Below are positions 3,261-11,174 of a stretch of DNA of 60,589 nt, piece by piece. Location of the stretch: contig CALJAP010000059.1 in NCBI GenBank assembly GCA_938027655.1, forward strand, positions 1-60,589. The letters are read 5' to 3'. The stretch's first letter is position 1. Each line of letters begins with the position of its first letter. The stretch is from an uncultured bacterium (GTDB lineage Bacteria; Armatimonadota; HRBIN16). A model generated the notes under the pieces. The model was not told where the DNA came from, searched no databases, and worked only from the letters and a program-made list of their open reading frames with translations. Position numbers and translations under genes: made by a program.

Positions 3261-3343
3261 TTTGAACTCTTAACCTCCTTTGGGAAGTTCATCGGAGTGC
3301 CTGTGGCACTGTTTTCATCCTATCCCAGCAGAGCGAAAAGTGC

Positions 3344-3359
3344 CGTGATTTAAGTCACA
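3344..3359. promoter_or_regulatory. CRP-type operator CGTGA-N6-TCACA
   Basis: CGTGATTTAAGTCACA has the same GTGATTT(A/G)AGTCAC core as the site at 2233-2248. It lies 84 bases upstream of the ferredoxin start. The repeat of a 14-base core at two places around the CRP-like gene is unlikely by chance. Confidence 0.6.
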
Positions 3360-3383
3360 GAGCATGATTATCGTAAGATGAGA

Positions 3384-3410
3384 GGGCGAGGCTCCGTGCG
3401 AGCCGCTGAC
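3384..3410. repeat. Dispersed palindromic repeat, AGGGCGAGGCTCC type
   Basis: AGGGCGAGGCTCCGTGCGAG recurs in closely related form at about 9653-9680 and, inverted, at about 51529-51553. Its core is a GGCTC / GAGCC hairpin. All copies are between genes. No coding content; probably a small non-autonomous repeat family of this genome. Confidence 0.55.
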
Positions 3411-3491
3411 CTTTCGTCAAAGGCACACGGACACGCACTACCCCAAACAGCGTGGTCACGACGGAGTGTGACCCCCCAACAATTTCAGAGT

Positions 3492-3519
3492 AGGGGGCAG
3501 ACCTCTGTTTCTGCCCCCT
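3492..3519 (-). terminator. Hairpin behind feoB
   Basis: AGGGGGCAGA (3492-3501) pairs perfectly with TCTGCCCCCT (3510-3519) around eight bases, six bases past the feoB stop. There is no strong T run. The rest of 3361-3524 contains a second small hairpin (GGTCAC/GTGACC near 3449-3473) and the dispersed repeat, but no gene. Confidence 0.55.
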
Positions 3520-3524
3520 ATACC

Positions 3525-5708
3525 TCATAGGTGCAGCGATCGTACGACGGCGTTCAACACCAGAAGCACACCGAAGGCGATGCCCAGAGGTAGCAACGTA
3601 GCAACCCACGCCCACTTCGCGCTTTTGGTTTCGCGCCATATCGTCAGAATGGTCGTGGAGCACGGGTTGTGCAGCAGCGAAAAGAGCATCAAGCTGATAG
3701 CGGTCATCGTCGTCCAGCCGTGTTGTTCTACCAGCAGGCGATGCAGGTCGTTCAGGCTCTCCAGTTCGGTCATCATACCCGCGCCCATGTAGGTCATGAT
3801 AATCGTAGGCACAACAATCTCGTTGGCAGGGATGGCAATGATATACGCCAGCAACACCACGCCGTCCAGCCCGATAGCGCGTCCAACGGGGTCCAGCCAG
3901 CCGGATATCCACTGCGACAGGCTCTGCCCGCCCGCGTGCATGTTAGCCAGCAACCAGATAACCCCACCCGCTGGCGCAGCCATGACCACCGCGCGCCACA
4001 ACACCAGCAAGGTGCGGTCAATCAGAGAGGTGTACAGCACCGCCAGCACGTTGGGTTTACGGTATGGGGGTAGCTCCAGGGTGAAACTGCTGGCTTCGCC
4101 CCTTAACACAGTGCGCGATAGCCCCGCGGATACGATGAAAGTGGTCAACACACCCACCATTACCACAGCAAGCAGTGCGCCGGCAGCTGCCGCCGCGGCG
4201 AATGCGGGCGGAAACGCTGCTGCCACAAATAGCGAACTCATGGTAATCAACAGAGGCCATCGCCCATTGCAGGGCATGAAGTTGTTAGTGAGGATGGCAA
4301 TCAACCGTTCGCGTGGCGAGTTGATAATGCGCGTTGCTACCACGCCTGCCGCGTTACAGCCTAACCCCATTGCCATCGTCAACGCCTGCTTGCCGTGTGC
4401 ACCCGCCTTCTTAAAAAACCTGTCCATATTGAACGCCACACGCGGCAGATAGCCCATATCCTCCAAGATGGTGAATATCGGGAAGAAGATTGCCATCGGT
4501 GGGAGCATGACGGAGACCACCCACGCCAGCCCCCGATAGATGCCATGCCACAGAAAGCCGGTGAGCCACCAGGGTGCGCCCAGCGCGTTGAACAGGGTGC
4601 TGCCTTTCGATTCCAACCAGAACAACCCTGCCGCGATAAACTCGGAAATCACGTTCGCGCCCTGAATGGTAACCCAGAAAACCCCCATCAGCAGCAATCC
4701 CATGATGGGCAGTCCCCAGACGCGCGAGGTAAGAATCCTGTCCAGCCGCTGGTCCCAGTCCCAGCGACGCTCGCCCTTCCGGTGCACTACTTTCCGGGCG
4801 ATGGCTTCTGCTTCAGCGTACAGTGATTCCACCATACGGTCGCGGAAGGAACCCTCTAGCTGGCGCTGCAACCTTTCAACATGTGAAAGAATATGGGCGG
4901 CGTGCGCACGTGCAATCGCCATCTCCTGCTCGCCGGCGTCACTTCTGGCAAGGCGTAGCAGCTCACCGTTCTCCAGCGAGCGACGCACGTTGTAGTCACC
5001 GTCTAGCAAGCGCATCGCTACCCAGCGACCGTTGGGAAGGTCGGGATAGGCTTGTTGTATCACAGGCACCAGTTCCGCCAGAGCCTGCTCCACCTTCTCG
5101 TCCACCTTCACCCGACGCGGCGAGGCGCGGAGCCTGCCCTGCACCAGCTCTGCCACCGTTTGCATCAGCAAGCCAAGTCCCGTGCCCTGCCGCGCTGCGG
5201 TAGGCACAACGGGCACGCCCAGCTCCCGCGCCAGCGCACGATGGTCTATCTCGATGCCTTTGCGTTCTGCCTCATCCATCAAGTTCAGGCATACCACCAC
5301 GCGGTCGGTAATCTCCAGTACCTGCAGCACCAGGTTCAGGTTGCGTTCCAGCGCGGTGGCATCCACCACCACCACCACGACGTCGGGTTTGGTAAACAGC
5401 ACGAAGTCTCGCGCGACCTCTTCGTCCACCGAGGCGGAGAGCAAGGAGTAGGTACCCGGCAGGTCCACGATTTTGTATCGCTTGCCGTTGAACTCGAACG
5501 CGCCCTCCATCCGTGTGACCGTCTTGCCGGGCCAGTTGCCGGTGTGCTGGCGCAAGCCGGTGAGCGCGTTGAACACGGTGCTCTTGCCGGTGTTCGGATT
5601 GCCAGCCAGCGCCAGCACATAGTCGAAGGAGTCCACACGCACGCCCATCTGCACCAGATGTTCACGCAACGCGCACGACTCACAGCCTTGACCGGTTACC
5701 TCTCTCAT
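3525..5708 (-). CDS. feoB: Ferrous iron transporter FeoB
   Basis: 727 residues, normal for FeoB, the inner-membrane Fe(II) importer with a cytoplasmic GTPase domain. G1 is GNPNTGKST (36-44), G3 is DLPGTYSL (82-89) and G4 is NLMD (142-145). The helical domain follows (about 195-310), then the membrane region with the two Gate segments, including TILEDMGYLPR and MGLGCNAAGVVATR. A CxxC (Cys9, Cys12) precedes the G domain. The ATG at 5708 has GGAG at fair spacing. It is the second gene of the operon, 34 bases after the DtxR-FeoA regulator, which supplies the FeoA-type domains. No separate feoA or feoC gene is seen. Confidence 0.97.
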   Translation of the reverse strand: MREVTGQGCESCALREHLVQMGVRVDSFDYVLALAGNPNTGKSTVFNALTGLRQHTGNWPGKTVTRMEGAFEFNGKRYKIVDLPGTYSLLSASVDEEVARDFVLFTKPDVVVVVVDATALERNLNLVLQVLEITDRVVVCLNLMDEAERKGIEIDHRALARELGVPVVPTAARQGTGLGLLMQTVAELVQGRLRASPRRVKVDEKVEQALAELVPVIQQAYPDLPNGRWVAMRLLDGDYNVRRSLENGELLRLARSDAGEQEMAIARAHAAHILSHVERLQRQLEGSFRDRMVESLYAEAEAIARKVVHRKGERRWDWDQRLDRILTSRVWGLPIMGLLLMGVFWVTIQGANVISEFIAAGLFWLESKGSTLFNALGAPWWLTGFLWHGIYRGLAWVVSVMLPPMAIFFPIFTILEDMGYLPRVAFNMDRFFKKAGAHGKQALTMAMGLGCNAAGVVATRIINSPRERLIAILTNNFMPCNGRWPLLITMSSLFVAAAFPPAFAAAAAAGALLAVVMVGVLTTFIVSAGLSRTVLRGEASSFTLELPPYRKPNVLAVLYTSLIDRTLLVLWRAVVMAAPAGGVIWLLANMHAGGQSLSQWISGWLDPVGRAIGLDGVVLLAYIIAIPANEIVVPTIIMTYMGAGMMTELESLNDLHRLLVEQHGWTTMTAISLMLFSLLHNPCSTTILTIWRETKSAKWAWVATLLPLGIAFGVLLVLNAVVRSLHL

Positions 5709-5742
5709 CTCATCTCTCCACCTTGCTCAATGACATCAACCA

Positions 5743-6798
5743 CTATGCGGTTCTTTGCTCCACACTCTTGTGCTCCTCATGCAGGGGCGCATCGCGCCCG
5801 TCGCGCCTCACCCAAATCCAGTCCGCCTGTTCGCGTCTCAGGGCGATTAGTGTGTCGCGCACGCGATACGCCACAGGGTCGCCGAAAGCGGAGCGCATGA
5901 CCACTTCGATTTCCGCACCGGGGGTGATGCCCAGGTCCAGAAACCGCCGGCGTGTTAGCCCCTGACAAGCCTCATCGATACGCAACACGGTTGCCCGCTC
6001 GCCCGGTTCCAACGAACCCAATCGTTCTCCCGGGGCGACACGCGCTCCGGGCAGGGCTTCGCGCACGCTGATGTTCGCCGCTACCACCGGCGCGAGCACA
6101 TGCTCATCGGTGTCGCTCTCCAGCACGATTCGCGTCGGCGAGCGCTCCACAACCCGCACCACCATGCCGGGGCGCAATCCCTCCGCCACAATCTGCGCGT
6201 ACACGTGCGAAGGCTCATCTTCCACATGTACGATTTGCGCGGGCTTGTCTATCGGAAACTCCACCAGCGACTGTGCTTCTATCTCCGGCATCTGGCCGCT
6301 GGCAGAAGGGATGGGGTCGCCATGCGGGTCGGAAGTGGGATGTCCCATGTAGGCGTCCAGCTGCTCTATCTGCTGGGGCGTCAGGGCGTGCCCCATGCGG
6401 TGCGCAAAATCGTGCACTTCGGTCGGTGCAACGGAGGTCTCGTAGGCAAGGTAACGCTCGAACAGACGATGCGCCCGCACCACTTGAATAGCTAGCCGGT
6501 GTCCTTCTGGGGTCAAACTCAAGCCGCCCGCGGTGGCACGCAACAACCCCTGCGTTTCCATGCGCTGCGCCAGAACTGCAGCCAGTCGGGTGGGAACATC
6601 CAGTGCCCCAGCCAGAGATTCTACAGACGCCAGCCGCCCGTCGTGCTCGCGCTGATGCAGGTGCATCAGCGCATCCTCAATCGCCTCGCGCGAACGCAAC
6701 CACCGCTTCTGCCTCCAGCGCGAAATCACACCCCATTGCGGTGCGAACAATAATAGCAGTACAATAACCGAAGCAACCAGGTAACCGTTTTCTAACAT
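5743..6798 (-). CDS. Membrane-anchored DtxR-type regulator fused to two FeoA-like domains
   Basis: 351 residues from ATG 6798 (AAAGG upstream; the frame's first start at 6948 overlaps the promoter). Residues 5-24 are a transmembrane helix followed by a basic stretch. Residues 34-100 are a winged helix like DtxR/MntR, and 105-165 the metal-binding/dimer domain, ending in the family motif MGHPTSDPHGDPIP. Two SH3-like FeoA-type domains follow, about 185-250 and 260-330 (LTRRRFLDLGITPGAEIEVV is typical FeoA). DtxR proteins repress metal uptake when bound to Fe or Mn; FeoA assists FeoB. A fused protein heading the feoB operon could sense iron at the membrane and touch both DNA and FeoB; that is inference. 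Upstream lie a promoter and a Fur-box-like palindrome. Confidence 0.88.
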   Translation of the reverse strand: MLENGYLVASVIVLLLLFAPQWGVISRWRQKRWLRSREAIEDALMHLHQREHDGRLASVESLAGALDVPTRLAAVLAQRMETQGLLRATAGGLSLTPEGHRLAIQVVRAHRLFERYLAYETSVAPTEVHDFAHRMGHALTPQQIEQLDAYMGHPTSDPHGDPIPSASGQMPEIEAQSLVEFPIDKPAQIVHVEDEPSHVYAQIVAEGLRPGMVVRVVERSPTRIVLESDTDEHVLAPVVAANISVREALPGARVAPGERLGSLEPGERATVLRIDEACQGLTRRRFLDLGITPGAEIEVVMRSAFGDPVAYRVRDTLIALRREQADWIWVRRDGRDAPLHEEHKSVEQRTA

Positions 6799-6811
6799 AT
6801 CTATACCTTTC

Positions 6812-6826
6812 TGAGAATCATTCTCA
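6812..6826. promoter_or_regulatory. Fur-box-like palindrome TGAGAATCATTCTCA
   Basis: A perfect 7-1-7 dyad differing from the Fur core TGATAATnATTATCA at one position per half. It sits about six bases downstream of the -10 of the feo promoter, over the likely transcription start, a position suited to repression. No fur gene is in the window, so the bound protein might be an unseen Fur or the DtxR-type regulator encoded just downstream. Confidence 0.7.
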
Positions 6827-6831
6827 ATAAG

Positions 6832-6860
6832 ATTGTACCCGCTGGCGCACTCTTTATCAA
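6832..6860 (-). promoter_or_regulatory. Promoter of the feo operon
   Basis: On the minus strand TTGATA (6860-6855), a 17-base spacer and TACAAT (6837-6832), about 34 bases before the regulator's ATG. Combined with the palindrome at 6812-6826 it forms a compact iron-control region. Confidence 0.7.
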
Positions 6861-7003
6861 GAACTGTTCCCGGCGCAGCCCCCTTTTCTCCTGCATAAAA
6901 GTTGCGATGCGCTGCCACAGGCAAGGCAAGAACAGGATACAGCCCCACGCAGCACGTATTCTACAGCAGGTTGTTATCCACAGGAACAGGAGGACAACAG
7001 ATA

Positions 7004-9637
7004 ATGCCTTTGCTCTACTCGACCATCCACCATACTTCTGGCATTCCTCTGGGCGGGATCGGCGCCGGCTCGGTGGAGATACGCCCCGACGGACTGTTTC
7101 ACGAATGGCAGATATTCAATACGGGCGCGTGGTCGCCGCACTCTCCGTGCGGGCTGCGCTCGGAAGAGCTGGTGCATCCTGAGGACCTCGTTTTCGTGCT
7201 GCGGGTGGCTACACAGGACGGCGACGTGCAGGTGCGTTACCTTGCCCTGCACGAGAGCCTGCACGACCTGTACTCCGCCGGATGGGCGCGCGCGGTGCAA
7301 TCCATCCAGTTCGAAGGCGCGTTCCCCCTCGCACGCCTGCACTATCTGGACGCCTCGCTGCCCGTGCAGGTGACGGCGGAGGTGTTCTCGCCGATGGTGC
7401 CACTGGATAGCCGCGCATCGGCTACGCCGGGCTTCTATGTTCGTTTTCTAGTGCAAAACACGGCGGAGGTGCCCATCGATGTGTCCATCCTGGGCGTGCT
7501 GCGGAACATGGCAGGCATCGGACAAGCGGAAAGGCAACCCCGCAACCTGCTCAGAGAGGTCAACGGAGGTGCTGCCGTTTACCTGACAGCGGAGGGATTA
7601 CAGCCTGAGCACTGTTCCACCGGCGATATGACCTTCGCCGTGCGCGGAGGCAAGGTCAGCTACATTACCGGAGGCTACCGAGAAGAGTATCGTTCGCTGA
7701 TGTTCTGGCGCAACCGCTTCGGGCTAAAGCCGGTGTCGGTACTGCGCCGTTTTCGTGAAGAAGGCGTTCTGCCCAACCTCGTCCCCGAAATCGCCCCCGC
7801 ACTCCCCGAAGGACTGGAGGTATCGCGTCTCTCGCCGGAGGAGCGCGAGGCATGGGTTCGGCAGATGCTTCAGCATCCGTTTGTGTATGACAAATACCAT
7901 CGTCTGCACCTCGTGGACCCACAGCTCGTGCAGTCGGCGGAGTTTCTGGAAGAAATCGCGATGAACCTGCAGGATCTGCGCGAGAGGCGAGCCGAATGGG
8001 GCTACGCTGCGCTATGCAGTCATCAGCAAATCGACCCGGAGGGCGAGGGCGAAGCGCTCTTCACGCTCAGCTGGTTCTTTCCCAATCACATCAGTCCCAC
8101 CGGCGCAAACATCGGACACCAGTACGCGCACTGGTTCCACAGCTCGCTAGAGGTGGCAGAGCACCTACTCAGCCATGCCTCCTCCCTGCGCGAGCGCACT
8201 CTGGATTTCGTGCAGGCTATCTACGATTCCAGTCTCCCGGCGGAAGCCGCCGACGCCATCAGCGGGCAACTCTCCACCTTGACCAAGTGCACCTGGTGGA
8301 CCAGAGCGGGGCATTTCGGCGTCTGGGAAGGGCTGGGATGCTGTGGCTTTCATACCACCGACATCACCTATCAGGGCTCTTTCCCCATTATCGCCCTCTT
8401 CCCCGACCTGCAGAAGATACAGATGGAACATGGAGCAAAGTTTCAGCGAGCGGACGGGCGCGTGCACCATTTCTTCGCCCCCGATTTCAGCGCGGTGGAC
8501 AACGGCTTTGACCGCGTGGATATGAACCCGCAGTTTGTGATGCTGGTAGCGCGTGATTACCTGTGGAGCGGGGATAAGGGCTATCTCGAGCGTCTGTACC
8601 CGCATGTTGTGCGCGCGATGGATAACACCCTGCTGCTGGACACCGACAACGATGCCCTGCCGGATACCGACACCCGCCGCAACACCTACGACGTGTGGGA
8701 TTTTCAGGGTAGTCCCTCCTACATCTGTAGCCTGTGGCTGGGTGCGTTGAGGAGTGCGGTGCGGCTGGCGGAAGAGACAGGCGATGCCGAACGCGCCGCG
8801 AAATGGCAAACCCTTTACGAAAAAGGCGTAAAGAGCTTTATCGAGAAGCTGTGGAACGGCGAGTACTTTGTGTTGTGGCGCGACGGTGACACAGTGGACG
8901 AATGCTGCATGAGCGACCAGATTAGCGCGGACTGGTTCTTTGCGGTGTGCGGCTGGGAACCGGTCATTCCCGAACAGTATATCCACCGTGCGCTGAATGC
9001 CATCCTGCGCTACAACTTCCGTGCAGGCGAGGGACTGCGCAACGCCTCCTACCCACCCGGTAAGCCCCACCGGCTTGCCGCCTCGGGCAACCTGCAGGCA
9101 GACGGTCTATGGACGGGTATCGAGTACACCGTCGCCGCTCTGCTTATCGCGCGGGGCAGGCTCGCCGAGGGTATGGCGATTGTGCGCGACATCCACGATC
9201 GCTATCTGCGGGCGGGCAGGTTCTGGAACCACGTCGAATGCGGAAACCATTACTACCGCGCGATGTCGGCGTGGACGCTGTTGAACGCGCTCACCGGTTT
9301 TCGCTGGGACGCCCCGCGAGGCGAGATGGCTTTCGCCCCACGAATCCGCACCATCGAGAGCCGATACCCCTTCTTCACGCCTACCGCATGGGGTATCTAC
9401 TCAGAGAGTGTGGGGATTACAAGCCACCGCGTGAGCATAGCAGTAGCGCACGGTGAGATACGCCTCTGTACTCTCAACCTCCCGCGCCGGCAGGGGGACA
9501 GAGCGGTCTCTGTCACGGTGAACAGGCAACCGGTTGGCGTAGAGGTCGCTCCCGATGGGCAGGGTATTTTGCTTCGCTTCGTCGTGCCTGTGACGCTGAG
9601 CGCAGGACAGGAAATAACAGTGGAAGGCATGCAGTAA
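7004..9637 (+). CDS. GH116 family glycosidase (GBA2-like beta-glucosidase type)
   Basis: 877 residues from ATG 7004, which follows AGGAGG; the open frame begins earlier (6902) without a ribosome site. GH116 enzymes have an N-terminal beta-sandwich and an (alpha/alpha)6 catalytic barrel and include human GBA2 and thermophilic beta-glucosidases. IPLGGIGAGSVEIRPDG near the start is the family's N-terminal signature. Glu442 in VWEGLGCCGFHTTD fits the nucleophile and Asp563 in NTYDVWDFQG fits the acid/base. CGNHYYRAMSAW near the end is also typical. No signal peptide is seen, so it is probably cytoplasmic, splitting beta-glucosides or beta-xylosides taken up. It is divergent from the feo operon. 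Substrate cannot be told from sequence. Confidence 0.9.
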   Translation: MPLLYSTIHHTSGIPLGGIGAGSVEIRPDGLFHEWQIFNTGAWSPHSPCGLRSEELVHPEDLVFVLRVATQDGDVQVRYLALHESLHDLYSAGWARAVQSIQFEGAFPLARLHYLDASLPVQVTAEVFSPMVPLDSRASATPGFYVRFLVQNTAEVPIDVSILGVLRNMAGIGQAERQPRNLLREVNGGAAVYLTAEGLQPEHCSTGDMTFAVRGGKVSYITGGYREEYRSLMFWRNRFGLKPVSVLRRFREEGVLPNLVPEIAPALPEGLEVSRLSPEEREAWVRQMLQHPFVYDKYHRLHLVDPQLVQSAEFLEEIAMNLQDLRERRAEWGYAALCSHQQIDPEGEGEALFTLSWFFPNHISPTGANIGHQYAHWFHSSLEVAEHLLSHASSLRERTLDFVQAIYDSSLPAEAADAISGQLSTLTKCTWWTRAGHFGVWEGLGCCGFHTTDITYQGSFPIIALFPDLQKIQMEHGAKFQRADGRVHHFFAPDFSAVDNGFDRVDMNPQFVMLVARDYLWSGDKGYLERLYPHVVRAMDNTLLLDTDNDALPDTDTRRNTYDVWDFQGSPSYICSLWLGALRSAVRLAEETGDAERAAKWQTLYEKGVKSFIEKLWNGEYFVLWRDGDTVDECCMSDQISADWFFAVCGWEPVIPEQYIHRALNAILRYNFRAGEGLRNASYPPGKPHRLAASGNLQADGLWTGIEYTVAALLIARGRLAEGMAIVRDIHDRYLRAGRFWNHVECGNHYYRAMSAWTLLNALTGFRWDAPRGEMAFAPRIRTIESRYPFFTPTAWGIYSESVGITSHRVSIAVAHGEIRLCTLNLPRRQGDRAVSVTVNRQPVGVEVAPDGQGILLRFVVPVTLSAGQEITVEGMQ

Positions 9638-9773: not shown

Positions 9774-10310
9774 CTAGATTCGTCGCCACCGACGGAGCGC
9801 CAGTAACGCCACGCCGATGCCCAACCCAGCCATCGTAGCAGGCTCTGGTACCACCGGCAAAGCGGTAATCTGCCCACGGATCTCACCGCCCGGATGAGCG
9901 GTGGTATGGATATTGATGTACGTGTTACCGCTCAGCAAGTTCACCTCTTCAGCTGCGGGAAACGACGCGCCGGTGATTATCTTGATAAGCTGGCTACCGA
10001 GTACAGCGTAGCTACTTCCGTCACCTATCGGGAAGATAATCGGCCCGTTGGCTCCCGCAGGAGCGCGGTGGATGTGTGAGGCAGTAAGGTCGCTTTGCAG
10101 GATGCCGCTCACCGTAATAGCCAGGTTGATAGTCTTGGTGACATCATCATAGCTGCCGAAAAGCACCCCGCTGGCGTTGGTGGAAACTGGCGGCACTTCT
10201 TGCGAACCGGTCAACGTTGCTTGCAGGTACCACAAACCTGCCCGCGATGGTAACGTCACCATCGCCAATAGCACCACCAGCAAAGCAAAACGCAATCCGA
10301 ATCTACTCAA
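9774..10310 (-). CDS. CHRD domain protein with PEP-CTERM anchor
   Basis: 178 residues. A signal peptide (about 1-24) is followed by one CHRD domain (TGSQEVPPVSTNASG, later ASHIHRAPAGANGPI and NTYINIHTTAHPGGEIRGQ), a beta-rich fold first described in chordin. The C-terminus is VPEPATMAGLGIGVALLAL plus arginines, a PEP-CTERM sorting signal that is cut by an exosortase at the outer face of the membrane. The start is TTG at 10310 with AAAGGAGGG nine bases upstream. It lies just after a paralogue on the same strand. The role is probably an exported surface or matrix protein; no exosortase gene is in the window. Confidence 0.88.
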   Translation of the reverse strand: MSRFGLRFALLVVLLAMVTLPSRAGLWYLQATLTGSQEVPPVSTNASGVLFGSYDDVTKTINLAITVSGILQSDLTASHIHRAPAGANGPIIFPIGDGSSYAVLGSQLIKIITGASFPAAEEVNLLSGNTYINIHTTAHPGGEIRGQITALPVVPEPATMAGLGIGVALLALRRWRRI

Positions 10311-10364: not shown

Positions 10365-10889
10365 CTACACTTTACGCCGGCGCAACAGGAGCATCCCCAA
10401 CCCTGCAGACAAGCCAACTAGCGACATGGGTTCGGGCACGGGAATAAGCTGCCCTCGGATCTCGCCGCCGGGATGAGCAGGGGTGTGGATGTTGATGTAG
10501 GTGTTGCCCGCTAACAGGTCTGCTTCGTAGGCGGAGGGGAATAAGCCACCCATAATGAACCGCGAGAAAATCACTCCGCTACCGCTCCACGAAGCGCCCC
10601 CGTCCAGATCGTAAATAATAGGACCATTTACGCCCGGCGCGCCGACGTGGATATGGGCACCTAAGATGTCGCTTTGCGAGATTCCAACCTCGTACACCGC
10701 CAGATTGAAGAGCTTCGACACGTCGTCATAGCTCATAATAGCCTGTCCGTATGCGGATGTACTAACAGGCGGAACCTCTTGACTGCCGGTAAGGCTTGCA
10801 GTAAGTACCCAAACCGTAGCGCTGGATGGCAGGGCTATCGCTGCAAGCAACACCGTAAGCAGTCCGAAGCGGTATGCCATTCGATGCAT
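10365..10889 (-). CDS. CHRD domain protein with PEP-CTERM anchor (paralogue)
   Basis: 174 residues from ATG 10889, which follows AAAGGAGG; the frame stays open upstream to 11135 but that part covers the promoter. Signal peptide about 5-27, CHRD domain (LTGSQEVPPVSTSAYG, GAHIHVGAPGVNGPI, NTYINIHTPAHPGGEI) and the C-terminal signal VPEPMSLVGLSAGLGMLLL with arginines. It clearly shares ancestry with the next gene downstream (9774-10310) and probably arose by tandem duplication. Function is unknown beyond surface export. A strong promoter stands upstream at 10965-10993, and 54 bases separate the two genes, so both may share one transcript. Confidence 0.87.
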   Translation of the reverse strand: MHRMAYRFGLLTVLLAAIALPSSATVWVLTASLTGSQEVPPVSTSAYGQAIMSYDDVSKLFNLAVYEVGISQSDILGAHIHVGAPGVNGPIIYDLDGGASWSGSGVIFSRFIMGGLFPSAYEADLLAGNTYINIHTPAHPGGEIRGQLIPVPEPMSLVGLSAGLGMLLLRRRKV

Positions 10890-10964
10890 ATCCTTTCCTC
10901 CTTTCATCATCATGGATGTATACGAAACCTCTTTTGTGCGAGCCGAGGCTCCCACTCTGCTTTT

Positions 10965-10993
10965 AGTATACACCTCGCGTGCAGAGCTGTCAA
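10965..10993 (-). promoter_or_regulatory. Strong promoter for the CHRD genes
   Basis: Minus strand TTGACA (10993-10988), 17-base spacer, TATACT (10970-10965). The leader to the ATG at 10889 is about 70 bases. The remaining divergent interval up to 11174 is A/T-rich with a short TTTTTTCTAAAAAA inverted repeat near 11020 and no gene. Confidence 0.75.
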
Positions 10994-11174
10994 GCATTTT
11001 TGCGAGGCAAGGAAAGATTTTTTCTAAAAAATTGCTTTTTTGCGCTCCGACCACATGGGACGCTGCAGGAAGGTGTGGGATGGTAAAGAATAAAACAATG
11101 GACCAACGCAACCCTTCCGTGCACGCAGGGGTCAATGGATAATGCTGAGTTCTCCATCCTGAGGAGGTGTTGAC

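Follow-up and report, generated by a model that had tools for sequence, protein, structure and literature searches.

Two questions are open in the biology of bacterial iron, namely what FeoA does for the transporter FeoB and how Fe(II) import can be stopped fast. In B. fragilis, FeoA contacts FeoB and stabilises its GTP-bound form, and the role of FeoA is debated (PMC8980893). Fusions of FeoA to repressors of the DtxR family were removed from the FeoA census in the same study (PMC8980893), so that proteins of this kind are present in databases but have been little studied. PgMntR (PG1044) of Porphyromonas gingivalis is a soluble DtxR with twin FeoA domains, encoded in an operon with feoB2. Each monomer takes three Mn(II) or two Fe(II), through the ligands D19-H85-E89-H104-C108-E111-H112-D132-H134-H166-D169-E170, and in vitro the protein attaches to its own promoter at 700–1000 nM with or without Mn(II), an activity that is lost without the second FeoA domain (PMC4805248). 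How repressors of this type hold DNA is known from IdeR, where the contacts are made by Thr7, Arg27, Arg29, Gln36, Ser37, Thr40, Ser42, Arg47, Arg50 and Arg60 and the base contacts by Gln43 and Pro39 (PMC8464063). Hence DtxRs with twin FeoA domains are already known, and for a membrane tether and an eroded DNA-contact helix, the two features described below, no published description was found; in the open-access literature no paper on a membrane-bound DtxR was found.

The window analysed here is a stretch of 60,589 nucleotides from an uncultured bacterium of the phylum Armatimonadota. A sequence-only reading had placed a membrane-tethered iron regulator fused to FeoA-like domains, at the head of a feoB operon, at positions 5743 to 6860, and this stretch does hold a reading frame for 351 aa (stop at 5743, ATG at 6798) together with the promoter, −35 hexamer included (Table 1). 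The transmembrane helix assigned in that reading stands: the best 19-residue Kyte-Doolittle mean is 2.32 (residues 7–25), the segment is bordered on its C-terminal side by RWRQKRWLRSR, which by the positive-inside rule predicts an N-out/C-in orientation, and the AlphaFold2 model (82 relatives in the alignment) has an N-terminal helix over residues 2–18 with a pLDDT of about 90. The overall pLDDT is 93 and all elements are present in the model, including the recognition helix at residues 70–82. The DtxR-type DNA-binding and dimer region of the earlier reading holds in part, as the metal-binding and dimerisation domain and the winged-helix (wHTH) fold are there while the DNA-contact residues are not, and PF01325, the N-terminal DNA-binding domain of DtxR, is unmatched in the protein even at an E value of 1. 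Likewise, of the two FeoA-like domains, both of which match PF04023 in the Pfam scan, the second is a real FeoA domain, 59% identical to one free-standing FeoA of the same phylum, whereas the first is the SH3 domain that DtxR proteins ordinarily have in third place, since 5zr6, ScaR and IdeR align with the model over wHTH, dimer and SH3 domains; DtxR-family MntR, ScaR and IdeR are its best structural matches, over the first three soluble domains. The protein falls below the curated NCBIfam cut-offs for MntR (NF047407, 116 bits vs 350) and DtxR (NF053665, 54 vs 290).

Table 1. Features of the fusion locus and neighbouring genes in the window (strand "." where none applies).
Feature	Positions	Strand	Basis or remark
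FeoB, 727 aa, N-terminal CxxC extension (CESC)	3525–5708	-	TIGR00437 over cut-off
Fusion protein: TM helix, DtxR-type wHTH/metal/dimer/SH3, FeoA; 351 aa	5743–6798	-	ORF, Pfam, AlphaFold2
Bona fide FeoA domain, residues 259–331	5806–6024	-	PF04023, E 8.9e-21 for domain
DtxR-type SH3 domain, residues 177–250, with HVEDE (H191, E193, D194, E195)	6049–6270	-	
Metal-binding/dimerisation domain PF02742, residues 96–164	6307–6513	-	Pfam E 1e-22
Metal-domain residues H110, E114, H129, H133, H137; position 136 is G, not E			
Codon of residue 136 (GGG)	6391–6393		
Winged-helix region, residues 38–96, degenerate recognition helix 70–82, shortened wing	6511–6687	-	
Single N-terminal TM helix, about residues 7–25, N-out/C-in	6724–6780	-	Hydropathy, K/R on C-side
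Fur-type palindrome TGAGAATCATTCTCA over predicted start site	6812–6826	.	Perfect palindrome
Sigma-70 promoter TTGATA-N17-TACAAT	6832–6860	-	
Divergent neighbour, glycosyl-hydrolase family 116 (beta-glucosidase 2 type) enzyme	6902–9637	+	
CHRD-domain protein with PEP-CTERM signal	9774–10310	-	
Neighbour of the preceding gene; similar secreted protein, looks alike	10365–11135	-	

The same arrangement recurs across phyla. In a scan in which each species was represented by a single genome, the best 80 loci included, as judged by record titles, representatives from Chloroflexota, Bacteroidota, Ignavibacteria/Calditrichota, Acidobacteriota, Gemmatimonadota, Verrucomicrobiota, Planctomycetota and Myxococcota; 72 of these loci were compared and, together with 14 members from the window's own phylum, where the fusion is rare (14/291 genomes at E 1e-35), they make up the 86 family members considered below. 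An N-terminal transmembrane helix was found in 66/72 of the loci compared from these best 80, with an excess of K/R on its C-terminal side in 65 of the 66. PF02742 and PF04023 were each matched in 82/82 members. In a phylogenetic tree a branch with support 100/99 separates the 86 family proteins from 43 ordinary DtxRs, a split that is helped by the inclusion of the helix columns in the alignment. Relatives are present in 6/198 genomes of Bacteroidales, including two that lack the transmembrane helix (L194 and L195) and whose contact helices are likewise degenerate.

The linkage to feoB that had been read from the window was borne out both locally, where feoB starts 34 nt downstream of the fusion's stop codon, and in the cross-phylum scan (best 80 loci), where a FeoB partner lies within 250 bp downstream of the fusion in 72/72 loci. 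A FeoA-like match outside the fusion's reading frame was found in just 2/72 of these scan loci. In the window's phylum, related FeoBs that are without a fusion have a DtxR and then a free-standing FeoA upstream of them (e.g., L219, L221 and L227), and the fusion occupies the slot that the free-standing FeoA has in these DtxR-FeoA-FeoB operons, its C-terminal domain being 43–63% identical to the free FeoAs in that slot. One genome (G019) has the order DtxR, fusion, FeoB, with the operator TTTAGCCTATCCTAAA. The partner FeoBs have features of their own: 61/65 carry an N-terminal CxxC extension before the G domain, which the second FeoB of the window's genome does not have, and in many relatives from the same phylum (L217–L231) FeoB is apparently split into a G-domain reading frame of ~270–360 aa and a separate membrane reading frame. 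The CxxC extension was considered as a marker of the fusion and dropped, as in the same phylum it is also found on FeoBs whose FeoA is free-standing.

The metal-sensing half of the protein has been kept. D42, H110, E114, H129, E136 and H137, which correspond to M10, H79, E83, H98, E105 and H106 of DtxR, are all present in 82/86 members, and column entropy at the metal domain is scarcely raised (1.49 in the family vs 1.30 in ordinary DtxRs). H191 and D194 on the SH3 domain are kept in 86/86 members, whereas position 191 is never H in ordinary DtxRs (R in 31/44), and the HVEDE motif that contains them is likely to be an additional, family-specific metal site. The window protein itself has G in place of E at the E105 position, where 85/86 members have E, and its primary metal site could therefore be weaker; G136 is either a real variant or an assembly error. 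This copy without E136 would suit a reading in which the fusion is a structural carrier of FeoA, its DtxR part merely dimerising and anchoring FeoA near FeoB and its metal being structural, with no switch. The fixed FeoB linkage and FeoA slot would be expected of such a carrier as well, and a metal-bound fold can be just stabilising. We nevertheless regard it as quite unlikely, because a near-invariant full set of ligands plus H191 and D194 exceeds what dimerisation should require, and because the binding of Mn(II) and Fe(II) by PgMntR is tight and takes place at distinct sites (PMC4805248).

The part of the protein that would hold DNA has fared very differently from its metal sites. The motif at the Pro39-Thr40-Val41-Ser42 positions of IdeR is present in 0/86 family members and in 33/44 ordinary DtxRs, and Ser37, Thr40, Ser42 and Arg60 are among the IdeR contact residues that have been replaced in the family; the window protein has L, A and V at the positions of Thr40, Ser42 and Gln43. 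A basic residue at the position of Arg60 in the wing was found in 3/86 members vs 26/44 ordinary DtxRs, the net charge of the wHTH is −2.7 vs +0.8, and PF01325 is matched, weakly, in 9/82 members vs 42/42 ordinary DtxRs. Column entropy at the recognition helix is 2.71 in the family and 1.65 in ordinary DtxRs and is also raised at the wing, the increase in variability being confined to these two elements. In one relative (L015) the recognition helix has been deleted outright. In the window protein the helix is not lost, since the AlphaFold2 model, the structural check proposed with the earlier reading, keeps the fold and the contact residues alone are gone. This degeneracy, as seen in the alignment, is correlational evidence on DNA binding, which we infer to be lost or weak in the fusion. 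Many members have R or K at the Thr40 position, and an altered rather than a lost DNA binding is therefore possible.

These observations bear on the proposal, made in the sequence-only reading, that the fusion, if tethered, could link Fe(II) import through FeoB directly to repression at the operon, which the absent motif, the missing basic residue in the wing, the more acidic wHTH and the few PF01325 matches all speak against. In this case the fusion would be a membrane-tethered transcriptional repressor, its metal-loaded DtxR part binding the operon promoter and the status of FeoA and FeoB feeding into repression. Membrane-tethered one-component regulators such as ToxR and CadC do exist, and the wHTH fold is intact in the model. 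A DtxR-type operator, TTTAG-N6-CTAAA with at most one mismatch, lies before 18/37 operons that have no adjacent DtxR, as it does before 14/25 operons that have one (expected, 0.3 and 0.6, respectively). In addition, in vitro binding to its own promoter is known for the probable relative PgMntR (PMC4805248), and this is the main evidence against a reading without DNA binding. If the family were repressors, however, a single operator, constant across phyla, would have to be recognised by a contact helix that is hypervariable. Furthermore, among the 66 loci whose upstream DNA was long enough, 30 have an ordinary DtxR gene next to the fusion, 26 of these genes lying in the same orientation and 4 divergently. 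Such a neighbour is seen, for example, at the Allomuricauda and Mangrovimonas loci L117 and L132. The helix is absent from L015, the operators elsewhere in the family are mostly of the DtxR type, and the site in the window is of the Fur type. A further DtxR-domain protein besides the fusion was found in 16/20 genomes tested; in the other 4 the fusion is the only one detected, a point against the loss of DNA binding, although these assemblies are perhaps incomplete. Overall, we consider a tethered repressor unlikely.

The Fur-type palindrome that had been read over the start site was confirmed: TGAGAATCATTCTCA follows the −10 hexamer and is at the same place in 9/9 orthologues of the genus, the window included, seven being perfect and two having one mismatch. 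By pattern search, as used for all genome-wide operator scans here, it is the sole perfect copy in the genome, and column identity within the genus is 0.98 over the palindrome vs 0.44 for the DNA farther upstream; together these results argue that it did not arise by chance. The other box in the genome with one mismatch (C86:5008) was set aside, as it falls where a coding sequence of the pfkB type begins. A Fur-type operator is not a rule of the family, since it was found at 0/25 and 1/37 promoters of operons with and without an adjacent DtxR, respectively, whereas an operator of the DtxR type was found at 14/25 and 18/37. No RNA family of Rfam matches within positions 3300–7100.

Which protein binds the palindrome was asked when the site was first noted, and the question is a fair one given the degenerate contact helix of the fusion and the Fur type of the site. 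Each of the nine genomes of the genus has one Fur-family gene, which heads a peroxiredoxin operon and whose product scores best against PerR models without reaching their cut-offs; its own promoter (L041, L053–L060) has a sequence conserved across the genus, GTGAAAATAgGAACGAATAcTATT, that is unlike the feo box. A gene for a ferritin/VIT-type membrane iron exporter is also conserved in the genus and has at its start site a one-mismatch Fur-type box (L052/L071; G009 C401:3724) or, in other genomes, looser Fur/PerR-like boxes. The other DtxR operon of the genus (contig C21), which has its own FeoB and FeoA, carries TTTAGATAGAGATAAA directly after the −10 hexamer; this is one mismatch from TTTAG-N6-CTAAA and unlike the window box, and the sister genomes have related, looser sites. 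Because the contact helix of the fusion is degenerate and the site of the C21 DtxR does not resemble the box, the single Fur/PerR-family protein of the genome, encoded on contig C82, is the best candidate and the likelier binder. Alternatively, the fusion itself or the second DtxR, an ordinary one, could bind the palindrome, which would be compatible with the fusion acting either on FeoB or on the promoter. The different sequence at the Fur-family gene's own promoter and the similarity of its product to PerR point in this direction, and a box that is almost confined to the feo operon in the genus would suit an operon-specific binder. Its sequence is nonetheless of the Fur 7-1-7 type, the DtxR operators in the family and at the DtxR operon of the genus resemble TTTAG-N6-CTAAA, and the exporter gene has degenerate Fur/PerR-like sites at its start, one of them with a single mismatch. 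A binder other than Fur/PerR therefore seems to us unlikely.

With the sensor kept and the grip on DNA apparently lost, the fusion probably controls the FeoB channel rather than genes. The reading that we favour, and hold to be probable, is that it is a membrane-tethered, metal-sensing FeoA subunit of FeoB, which derives from a DtxR/MntR repressor and in which DNA binding is lost or weak. The transmembrane helix would hold the fusion at the membrane beside FeoB, where cytoplasmic Fe(II) or Mn(II) would fill the metal sites kept from DtxR and, on the SH3 domain, the HxEDE site that is peculiar to the family. Metal loading may then rearrange the dimer and shift the FeoA domain on the FeoB G domain, which would tune GTP turnover by FeoB, and hence import, to cytosolic metal; both the contact between fusion and FeoB and the direction of this effect are presumed here. 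The Fur-type palindrome would belong to a second layer of control, at the level of transcription, with the single Fur/PerR-family protein as its most likely reader. More tentatively, with the chances a little short of even, an iron/manganese repressor has been turned in many phyla into a membrane-bound post-translational valve on FeoB, transcription being left to an ordinary DtxR or to Fur. If so, cytosolic metal would tune the activity of FeoB via FeoA, for which the fusion would provide a test object, and the metal-sensing half of a repressor would have been reused to gate a transporter. Many feoB-adjacent genes annotated as DtxR/MntR 'transcriptional regulators' may then not encode transcription factors.

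Compared with known systems, the family is closest in build to PgMntR, which has the same DtxR-type metal/dimer domain, two FeoA/SH3 domains and feoB operon context. From published residue numbers, its ligand spacings are also those of the family (19 for H110-H129, 20 for H137-D157, 54 for H137-H191, and H-x2-D-E). The distance from D to H, 66 in PgMntR, is nearer to that in the family (68 in most members, 66 in one other) than to that in ordinary DtxRs (at least 69). PgMntR differs in having Cys at the C102 position and in being soluble, in contrast to the window protein and the 66/72 loci with a transmembrane helix; its DNA-binding domain is reported to start at residue 13, which leaves no room for a preceding helix. 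On the matching ligand spacing, PgMntR is probably a member of the family that lacks the tether. The repressors DtxR, IdeR and MntR (5zr6, 3hrs, 1u8r and 1c0w) superpose on the family over the wHTH, metal/dimer and SH3 domains and share the ancillary and primary ligands, but they have neither a transmembrane helix nor an extra FeoA domain, and their contact helix and wing are conserved where those of the family are eroded. FeoA is otherwise found free or fused to FeoB, as in FeoAB of B. fragilis (PMC8980893), whereas in the family it is fused to a transmembrane DtxR part. Lastly, regulators of the ToxR/CadC type also have a winged helix tethered to the membrane by one transmembrane helix; they have kept DNA binding and have a periplasmic part, whereas the fusion has a cytoplasmic sensor, has lost its DNA-contact residues and has an unrelated wHTH.
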